Shown in pieces: positions 10,721-56,447 of a stretch of 64,000 nucleotides of DNA. A program made the position numbers and the translations under genes. Source of the stretch: Bacillota bacterium (GTDB lineage Bacteria > Bacillota > Clostridia > Christensenellales > UBA1242); NCBI GenBank assembly GCA_009784185.1, contig WRCD01000003.1:1-64000 (forward strand), read 5' to 3'. Position 1 is the first letter of the stretch; each line of letters starts with the position of its first letter. The notes under the pieces are model-generated. The model worked only from the letters and a program-made list of their open reading frames with translations. It was not told the origin of the DNA and did not search any database.

Positions 10721-10830
10721 AATTCCCCTCTTGAGAGGGGTGCCCGCAGGGCGGGGTGTGTTTTAGCAAACTCTCGTTTGGCTACCCCGTCTGCGCCTTT
10801 GGCGCATCCACCCCTTCGTAAAGGGGAATT
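10721..10830. repeat. Family A composite element (110 bp), overlapping the 3' end of trmK
   Basis: aattcccctcttgagaggggtgcccgcagggcggggtgtg...gctaccccgtctgcgcctttggcgcatccaccccttcgtaaaggggaatt. Confidence 0.85.
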
Positions 10831-21229: not shown

Positions 21230-21363
21230 AATTCCCCTTTATTGAAGGGGTGGATTGCGAGCCGCTAGGCAAAGCAAGACGGGGTAGCCGACACCGAAGG
21301 TGGCGCAAAACTTTCTCACATACCCCGCCACTTCGTGGCACCCCTTTATCTTAAAGGGGAATT
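21230..21363. repeat. Family A composite element (134 bp), overlapping the 3' end of the glycosylase gene
   Basis: aattcccctttattgaaggggtggattgcgag...gacggggtagccg...accccgccacttcgtggcacccctttatcttaaaggggaatt. Confidence 0.85.
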
Positions 21364-22724: not shown

Positions 22725-22802
22725 TACTTAAATGTAAAATAATTTAAAAAGTTTTACAGCAAAAGATTCCCCTTTAAGATAAAGGAGAATTTTAGCACTT
22801 CT

Positions 22803-22858
22803 ATCTAGGGGATTGCTTCGCTTGCCCGTCTCCGCAGGCAAGGCTCGCAATGACAGTA
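22803..22858. repeat. Family B dispersed repeat
   Basis: ctaggggattgcttcgcttgcccgtctccgcaggcaaggctcgcaatgacag; second copy at 32798. Confidence 0.75.
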
Positions 22859-22863
22859 TACAT

Positions 22864-31056: not shown

Positions 31057-31188
31057 AATTCCCCTTTTGCGAAGGGGTGGATTCGGAGTCCGAAGGACGA
31101 ACGAAGACGGGGTAGCCAAACGAAAGATGGACTCAAGCCCTTTTCCACACCCCGCCACTCCGTGGCACCCCTCTTATAGAGGGGAATT
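31057..31188. repeat. Family A composite element (132 bp)
   Basis: aattccccttttgcgaaggggtggattcgg...gacggggtagcc...cacaccccgccactccgtggcacccctcttatagaggggaatt. Confidence 0.85.
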
Positions 31189-32764: not shown

Positions 32765-32797
32765 TTGTTCTGTGCTTTCACTTCCCTTTTATTTCTA

Positions 32798-32850
32798 CCT
32801 AGAGGATTGCTTCGTTTGTTGGTCTCCGCCAGCCAGGCTCGCAATGACAG
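32798..32850. repeat. Family B dispersed repeat
   Basis: ctacctagaggattgcttcgtttgttggtctccgccagccaggctcgcaatgacag. Confidence 0.75.
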
Positions 32851-32858
32851 GATTTGCT

Positions 32859-52743: not shown

Positions 52744-52887
52744 TAATTTAAACGATATTGTTATATTGTGCAACAATTAATATTTTAAGCAATCGGCACA
52801 ATAATTCCCCTTCTTAGAAGCGGTGGATGCGAAGAGTGGCTAGATAGCCAAGCCGGCTGTCAGGTTAAAGTTAAGCAACACAATAAA

Positions 52888-53392
52888 AATTCCCCTCTAT
52901 AAGAGGGGTGGCAATCCGTCAGGATTGACGGGGTGTGGCTAGAGATTATAAAACCTCCTCCAAAAACCTCATAACCCCGTCAAGATTTTGTTTAACATCA
53001 ACATCTAATATGTGTATTATCCTCAACCCCAAGCTTTTTAAATACGCTTCCCGCTTTTTGTCATGCTCCTCTTTGTAATCATGCGTTGCACCATCCAACT
53101 CAACAATCAGTTTCAACTTTGGACAATAAAAATCAACTATGTAGTTGCCTATAATTAATTGCCTGTCAAAGTTTAAGCCTTTAAATTGTTTATTTTTAAG
53201 TTGCAGCCATAGAAGTGCTTCCGACAGATTGCCGGCCTTTCTTAACTCTGCAGCACGCTTTCTAAGCGCCGGATTATACGGCAAATCATAGTTTTTGTGT
53301 TTATACGTCAATTTATCTCCAATATTCCTTTTACTAGCCACACCCCGTCTGCTCCCCATGGTCGCATCCACCCCTCTTGTAGAGGGGAATTT
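52888..53392. mobile_element. Putative miniature mobile unit: DUF559 gene with family A inverted ends
   Basis: Left AATTCCCCTCTATAAGAGGGGTGG...GACGGGGTGTGGCTAG; right end reverse-complements to AATTCCCCTCTACAAGAGGGGTGG...GACGGGGTGTGGCTAG. Confidence 0.6.
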
Positions 53393-53398
53393 TGCCAA
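52946..53398 (-). CDS. DUF559 endonuclease-domain protein; upstream start codons lie in a family A repeat
   Basis: EALLWLQLKNKQFKGLNFDRQLIIGNYIVDFYCPKLKLIVELDGATHDYKEEHDKKREAYLKSLGLRIIHI. Confidence 0.85.
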   Translation of the reverse strand: MAKFPSTRGVDATMGSRRGVASKRNIGDKLTYKHKNYDLPYNPALRKRAAELRKAGNLSEALLWLQLKNKQFKGLNFDRQLIIGNYIVDFYCPKLKLIVELDGATHDYKEEHDKKREAYLKSLGLRIIHILDVDVKQNLDGVMRFLEEVL

Positions 53399-56310: not shown

Positions 56311-56447
56311 AATTCCCCTTTTTCGAAGGGGTGGCGCACGAGCCGTAGAGGCGAGTGTGACGGGGTAGCCGCTTGGCATCGCCAAGCGCAAAAACTTTTA
56401 AGCTACCACACCCCGCCCTTCGGGCACCCCTCTTATAGAGGGGAATT
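56311..56447. repeat. Family A composite element (137 bp) between uvrA and uvrB
   Basis: aattccccttttt cgaaggggtggcgcacgag...gacggggtagccgcttggcatcgccaagcgc...cacaccccgcccttcgggcacccctcttatagaggggaatt. Confidence 0.85.

Follow-up and report, generated by a model that had tools for sequence, protein, structure and literature searches.

A solitary Vsr-like nuclease gene bounded by inverted hairpin ends, a probable autonomous copy of a REPIN/RAYT-like mobile system

Introduction

Does a nuclease gene that lies between two inverted copies of a dispersed repeat belong to that repeat, or was it merely caught there? The question is raised by a locus in the window (the whole stretch of 64,000 nucleotides that was analysed), in which one DUF559 (PF04480) nuclease gene and inverted copies of a two-part hairpin repeat together form a 504-bp unit. 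The source genome is represented by an assembly of 1.16 Mb in 19 contigs that is 94% complete. We found no link between DUF559 and these repeats in the literature searched, outside which most subscription journals and preprints lay.

Results

A nuclease gene between inverted ends

The layout is the same when read inward from either side of the unit: AATT, a C/G-rich hairpin, an inner part and GGGGTGTGGCTAG. The left flank, AATTCCCCTCTATAAGAGGGG-inner-GGGGTGTGGCTAG, occupies 52888–52942 and its inverse copy 53334–53391. A preliminary description made from the sequence alone had claimed near-identical inverted flanks around a DUF559 gene, and this held, position included. The unit and its precise ends are shown by the following features.

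52888–53391, no strand: whole unit, 504 bp, AATT...AATT
52888–52938, plus strand: left triplex end, from sequence, single-stranded DNA (ssDNA) fold and genome-wide three-arm covariation
52892–52898: Y arm of the left end, CCCCTCT
52902–52908: R arm of the left end, AGAGGGG
52909–52929: inner hairpin of the left end
52930–52938: third arm of the left end, GGGGTGTGG
52946–53311, minus strand: DUF559 (PF04480) Vsr-like nuclease gene, 121 aa from TTG
52946–53398, minus strand: mechanical open reading frame (ORF) of the DUF559 gene, 453 bp, 150 aa
53334–53337: right-side copy of the CTAG common to both ends
53338–53391, minus strand: right triplex end (inverted), from sequence and inverted repeat I14
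53338–53346: third arm of the right end
53347–53370: inner part of the right end
53371–53387: outer hairpin of the right end
52797–52843, plus strand: degenerate extra end just beyond the unit, AATTCCCCTTCTTAGAAGCGGTGG..AGAGTGGCTAG, repeat family D6

As ssDNA, the left end (52888–52945) folds with z = -4.4 and the right end more weakly, with z = -1.6. No Rfam family scored above threshold at the locus, and PADLOC returned weak, partial matches and nothing more.

The 453-bp ORF noted in the preliminary description exists, but it begins outside the unit. The probable start is the TTG at 53311, behind GGAGAT, which gives a 121-aa protein encoded entirely within the unit. The unit holds no other ORF, and thus neither an HUH/Y1 nor a DDE transposase. 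The protein matches Pfam PF04480 with E = 2.4e-30 and 105 bits, against a curated cut-off of 20.6. The best PDB matches of its AlphaFold (AF2) model (pLDDT 80) are 3hrl (Neisseria NGO0050) and 3r3p (homing endonuclease I-Bth0305I), the latter through the catalytic domain (E = 1.6e-4, target TM 0.74); Vsr itself (1vsr) is a later and poorer match. Sequence-profile comparison agrees with these structure matches, and the model predicts a Vsr-like PD-(D/E)XK fold. E, D, H and R/Q residues are invariant in alignment A2. The coding copies have dN/dS values of 0.03–0.20 (0.10 for a within-genome pair), showing that they are under purifying selection. A Caulobacter DUF559 protein (VsrA) raises the SOS response in vivo and acts on chromosomal DNA (PMC12907096), and members of the family are therefore able to act on the chromosome.

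The ends obey a three-arm rule

Three arms make up each end: a pyrimidine (Y) arm, the R arm complementary to it, and a third that repeats the purine arm in mirror order, with G answering G and either A or T answering A. The outer hairpin predicts the letters that define the class of the end: AGAGGGG occurs with GGGGTGT, GAAGGGG with GGGGTAG, GGAGGGG with GGGGTGG and TAAAGGGG with GGGGTAT. Across 172 ends, third-arm position 2 obeys the R arm in 166 of 169 cases (shuffled mean 85, maximum 110 in 2000 shuffles) and position 3 in 149 of 163 (shuffled mean 81, maximum 103). These counts treat related copies as independent. The same arm rule, with other letters, was found in other phyla, and we regard the rule as shown. 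Hairpin pairing alone fails to explain the third arm, because a Watson–Crick partner needs the reversed order. The pattern is the base-triplet code of a purine-motif intrastrand triplex (R.R:Y); that these sequences form such a triplex is inferred. The inner part is palindromic beyond shuffles (mean stem 4.6 versus 2.9) and highly variable, with 118 kinds in the 172 ends.

Coding and non-coding pairs in the source genome

The ends are dispersed throughout the genome. One pattern finds 288 of them and its reversed form finds 0, so their abundance is not due to chance. Of 41 neighbouring ends less than 200 bp apart in the 777 kb that were read completely, 34 are convergent. Most of the genome's ends lie in gene-less convergent pairs, typically of 108–137 bp. 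Five such composites, of 134, 110, 134, 132 and 137 bp, had been reported in the window, and all were located.

1858–1991, no strand: non-coding convergent pair, 134 bp
10721–10830, no strand: non-coding convergent pair, 110 bp
21230–21363, no strand: non-coding convergent pair, 134 bp, ssDNA fold z = -5.3
31057–31188, no strand: non-coding convergent pair, 132 bp
56311–56447, no strand: non-coding convergent pair, 137 bp

Hairpin ends adjoin every one of the seven DUF559 matches in the genome. Six are intact copies bounded by convergent ends of the same family, two of which (L005 and L006) meet a contig end on one side; the seventh (L007) is truncated between such ends and is clearly a deletion remnant of a gene-bearing unit. 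The letters that follow the inner G-run are the same on the left and right of each intact copy and differ between copies (TGTGG, TAGC, TGGTTTAAA, TATGTGAAAA). When ends were grouped by class (TGT, 63 ends; TAG, 47; TGG, 23; TAT, 19; TTG, 13), the four largest classes each had coding copies (TGT, L001 and L002; TAG, L003; TGG, L004; TAT, L005 and L006), and TTG, the fifth, was seen at a remnant only. Left and right classes match in 6 of 6 coding units versus 10 of 35 non-coding pairs (p = 0.002), and mixed classes are usual in the non-coding pairs, as they are in pairs of E. coli. Because the two ends of the short composites often differ in class, most of these composites are not plain deletions of a gene-bearing unit.

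The genome has a single Y1 (IS200-like) transposase gene (L269, C2:101461-101790), which is bounded by an unrelated inverted repeat, GTCACGGGGACGGAGGTGTTGACA; neither the AATTCCCC nor the GGGGAATT core occurs within ~1.4 kb of it. A RAYT/Y1 enzyme as mobiliser of the ends is disfavoured, as the Y1 gene carries other terminal repeats. The L269 repeat resembles published TIRtrons with a GGGGWSAS motif.

Two further observations concern other elements of this genome. A second repeat family, GGATTGCTTCG..CTCGCAATGACAG, is present at 22799–22859 and 32793–32853 of the window and recalls CGTC/TGTC-tagged REPs. A reverse transcriptase (RVT_1) gene lies beside a small helical ORF (L270, C1:276640-277257) and, judged from the neighbouring genes, probably represents a diversity-generating retroelement.

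Ends accompany DUF559 genes across phyla

A scan of GTDB genomes gave 80 DUF559 loci, and relatives and plasmid records gave more; we tested 122 loci. The set favours stand-alone DUF559 proteins like that of the window, and large fusion proteins were left out. To call a triplex end, the detector required both Y and R arms plus a third arm in mirror order, with the whole oriented inward. At least one end was found at 112 of the 122 loci (92%), compared with 38 of 634 control positions in the same stretches (6%), and ends on both sides at 74 loci (61%), compared with a single control position (0.2%). A stricter detector found both ends at 43 of 122 loci and at 0 of 647 controls, and block-shuffled flanks, generated for a first set of loci, gave none. 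No end was detectable at 10 of the 122 loci. By record titles, the loci span more than 20 phylum-level groups, among them Chloroflexota, Nitrospirota, Nitrospinota, Desulfobacterota, Bacteroidota, Cyanobacteriota, Patescibacteria, Bacillota, Pseudomonadota, Rickettsiales, Planctomycetota and Deinococcota, and this recurrence across phyla is shown. Among distant proteins (<45% identity), end type correlates only weakly with protein (Mantel r = 0.06, not significant).

Within the order of the source genome, DUF559 is patchy (69 of 396 genomes). It is carried by 21 of 28 repeat-rich genomes versus 48 of the 368 others (p = 3e-12). Repeat-rich here means at least 8 extra copies of one end class over the reversed control; this cut-off was set manually, and the genomes compared are related to one another. 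The remaining 7 repeat-rich genomes had no DUF559 match; their repeats may have outlasted the gene or may be served by another enzyme, and draft assemblies may miss the gene.

On three cyanobacterial plasmids (L108, L201 and L202), the DUF559 gene is near a DUF1156 gene each time, and DUF499 is also near DUF559 in the two Picosynechococcus plasmids. The DUF559/DUF1156 neighbourhood could perhaps be a defence locus.

Units at unrelated sites and inside genes

Homologous units occur in unrelated surroundings. In locus-to-locus alignments, identity stops at the outer arms for L144/L153 (Chloroflexota), L140/L143 (Desulfobacterales), L228/L229 (two genera of the order of the window's genome) and L005/L006 (same genome). 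The last pair is 94% identical over 477 bp, with its left border at AATTCCCC and its right side cut by the assembly. The gene and outer arms of these two copies are near-identical and their left inner hairpins are wholly different, a contrast that hints at fast exchange of the inner part.

Some units sit inside genes. In L182, a whole unit lies in frame within Mfd and adds ~285 residues; Mfd homologues of Sinorhizobium, Sphingomonas and Citrobacter run uninterrupted through the insertion point. In L114 and L116, a unit is found in frame at the same place, the central linker of HsdS; between matched halves this linker has 5 residues in Bacillus versus 212 in L114.

We also observed whole DUF559 units in frame within conserved ORFs at L113 and L141 (methylase or restriction–modification ORFs) and at L170. 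In-frame ends translate to strings such as SPPLEGCPKGGVV and HPALRAPLQRRG. Several other units sit at HsdS C-termini; together with the in-frame insertions, this makes restriction–modification genes look like a preferred neighbourhood. On a plasmid of Sphingomonas parapaucimobilis (L106), a DUF559 unit lies between sufB and sufC of the suf operon.

We saw no target duplication of 3–8 nt outside AATT (0 of 39 pairs). A 4-bp duplication is not excluded, because AATT is palindromic and a duplication of it could not be distinguished from the end. The first bases outside AATT in this genome are mostly T, and these flanks suggest no shared recognition sequence beyond this T-rich trend. A clean empty site at the nucleotide level was not found on Azospirillum, Sphingomonas and Synechocystis plasmids, at the E. 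coli ycjD locus, among E. coli BoxC pairs or in two genera of relatives; in these cases the flanks had been replaced, were too diverged or were filled with repeats, or, for a single E. coli variant, there had been a collapse between the arms of the pair. There is no second genome for comparison from the genus of the window's genome, and empty sites are visible at the protein level only (Mfd, HsdS). In the E. coli variant, the alx–sstT intergenic region (L236/L237), the BoxC inverted pair of K-12 is cut to one outer hairpin in strain 998, which we read as collapse between arms and not as a clean empty site.

A tentative link to BoxC/PIT/TM repeats

The TM_ECO motif (BoxC, PIT) of E. coli reads CCCTCNCCC-loop-GGGNGAGGG-N3-GGGNGAGGG (Holder et al. 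2015, PMC4666352). It forms a triplex in vitro by CD and NMR, and in vivo footprinting gave no support for one; K-12 has 23 copies, including five inverted pairs, and no mobility gene was reported near them (PMC4666352). Ends near-identical to TM_ECO occur in several lineages of DUF559 units (L174, L190: CCCTCTCC..GGAGAGGG..GGGTGAGG). In E. coli itself the DUF559 gene is ycjD, whose locus is present in full-length form in 3363 of 5426 genomes, and the sequence downstream of it (L109) is that of TM_ECO number 9. The right side of ycjD in strain KE47 directly adjoins a BoxC third arm and hairpin, whereas the left side lacks a matching end; the E. coli copy has therefore decayed or been altered. 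DUF559 could be the partner enzyme that the BoxC/triplex repeats have long lacked.

Discussion

These observations are best explained if the locus is, as we think likely, the autonomous copy of a REPIN/RAYT-like mobile system in which a solitary Vsr-like PD-(D/E)XK nuclease takes the place of the HUH transposase. Once exposed as a single strand, for instance during replication or through extrusion, each end would adopt a C/G-rich hairpin joined by a purine-type third arm, giving an R.R:Y intrastrand triplex, along with a variable inner hairpin. The DUF559 nuclease would read this folded structure and cut at its outer base. The cut or copied unit would then enter new sites, A/T-rich spots and sometimes positions in frame within genes, via host repair or replication and without target duplication. 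Gene-less convergent pairs would be non-autonomous and depend on the enzyme in trans, the relation thought to hold between REPINs and RAYT. No experiment supports DUF559 as the mobilising enzyme, its recognition of a triplex or the steps of folding, cutting and insertion, all of which are inferred. Strand joining is the weak point of this mechanism: a PD-(D/E)XK nuclease is not known to join strands on its own, and integration would therefore have to be borrowed from the host or from another enzyme.

How did the preliminary description fare on origin and movement? Its proposal of a coding unit with non-coding derivatives is supported by the genome-wide and cross-phylum data, with the correction on plain deletions given above. 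Its suggestion of nuclease-driven movement fits and is not proven. It had proposed looking for matching flanks at DUF559 genes of this genome and its relatives, and these were present at 7 of 7 genomic copies and, as at least one end, at 112 of 122 loci. Repeats in genomes without DUF559, and DUF559 without the repeats, were to count against it; each is partly met, by 7 of 28 repeat-rich genomes and 10 of 122 loci, respectively. Of the insertion traces that it had named, empty sites were seen in proteins only and target duplications of 3–8 nt outside AATT not at all among the 39 pairs.

A bolder reading, towards which we lean without much margin, is that these units belong to a superfamily of transposable elements found throughout bacteria, which solitary Vsr-like DUF559 nucleases would mobilise by recognising intrastrand-triplex ends; E. 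coli BoxC/PIT/TM and many unnamed C/G-rich palindromes would be its non-autonomous members.

Among the rival explanations, the first is that mobility belongs to the ends themselves, driven by a different enzyme (a RAYT/Y1 transposase or a recombinase) or by replication slippage, with DUF559 as a passenger caught between two of them. Non-coding pairs far outnumber coding units, seven repeat-rich genomes have no DUF559 match and this genome has one Y1 transposase, all of which speak for it. It is nevertheless unlikely, as the same gene family recurs in more than 20 phylum-level groups, the gene is under purifying selection, end classes are matched in coding units but mostly unmatched in non-coding pairs, and the Y1 gene has other terminal repeats.

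A second rival holds that DUF559 serves maintenance: it would resolve triplex or hairpin DNA at the repeats, with selection for proximity to its substrate, and the repeats would spread by recombination. The Vsr-like fold, the chromosomal action and SOS effect of the Caulobacter protein (PMC12907096), and the greater variability and rearrangement-proneness of BoxC/TM loci (PMC4666352) favour this view. We doubt it, because the patchy distribution of the gene, its multiple copies in a genome, the recurrence of exact units in unrelated places and the mfd and hsdS insertions fit a mobile unit better than a housekeeping gene.

Homing, in which the nuclease would cut an empty allele and the unit would be copied in by recombination, as with intron homing endonucleases of the same fold, has in its favour that I-Bth0305I is the nearest named fold relative and that the HsdS linker insertions of L114 and L116 are at the same place. 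It is very unlikely, as the copies of one genome occupy hundreds of unrelated sites, which fixed-site homing would not lead one to expect. The flanks in this genome, which suggest no common recognition sequence, also speak against homing. The idea that the repeats act as terminators of transcription or as RNA hairpins and flank DUF559 by coincidence, although they are G+C-rich hairpins and mostly intergenic, is all but excluded by both ends at 74 of 122 loci versus 1 of 634 controls, a third arm that a terminator does not need, units in frame inside ORFs and the lack of promoter or terminator activity of PIT elements (cited in PMC4666352).

We return to the REPIN/RAYT-like reading and what it would mean. 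Should DUF559 prove to be the mobilising enzyme, the unit would represent a new class of mobile element, one without DDE, HUH, serine or tyrosine recombinase chemistry in its own gene, and a common nuclease family of unknown function would gain a function. With a partner gene that recurs, is under selection and has matching ends, the origin of the repeats becomes directly testable. In-frame copies also distort gene models such as those of hsdS and mfd.

Comparison with known systems places the unit apart from each. With REPIN/RAYT systems it shares short palindromic ends that are present in many copies and form convergent pairs, a related copy that bears a gene between such ends, the absence of target duplication and occasional insertion into genes (PMC3733652, PMC3116915). 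It fails the RAYT test, however: the enzyme is a DUF559 Vsr-like PD-(D/E)XK nuclease without an HUH or Y1 domain, and in place of a GTAG tag the ends follow the triplex code, with third-arm letters (TGT, TAG, TGG, TAT or TTG) set by the stem. It likewise fails the DDE test. Insertion sequences and MITEs with a DDE transposase also have terminal inverted repeats and short non-autonomous copies, but the unit has no such transposase and no target duplication was seen, and its ends are structured and variable. I-Bth0305I (PDB 3r3p) shares the catalytic-domain fold and lacks both inverted ends and dispersed derivatives; it is a homing enzyme of a phage intron.

CGTC-tagged REPs and Rickettsia palindromic elements are also palindromic dimers, some of them within repair genes (PMC3733652), but have other stem sequences. 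REPs of the CGTC type 'apparently lack a dedicated transposase' (Di Nocera et al. 2013, PMC3733652). Many of our inner parts contain CGTC (CCCCGTC), yet the stems are unlike those of published CGTC-REP families, an AT-starting stem of 8–9 bp.

Structurally, the repeats are of the BoxC/PIT/TM kind. These share the form CCCTCxCCC-loop-GGGxGAGGG-xxx-GGGTGAGGG, the Y-R-R order of arms, G, A or T in the third arm, and inverted heterodimers; the membership rule of Y-R-R arms with a mirrored third arm (G to G, A to A/T) is met. Two differences remain. The ends of DUF559 units usually have an inner hairpin where BoxC/PIT/TM has a 3-nt second loop, and BoxC/PIT/TM are known as orphan repeats only, whereas here repeats of this kind are the ends of a nuclease-bearing unit.
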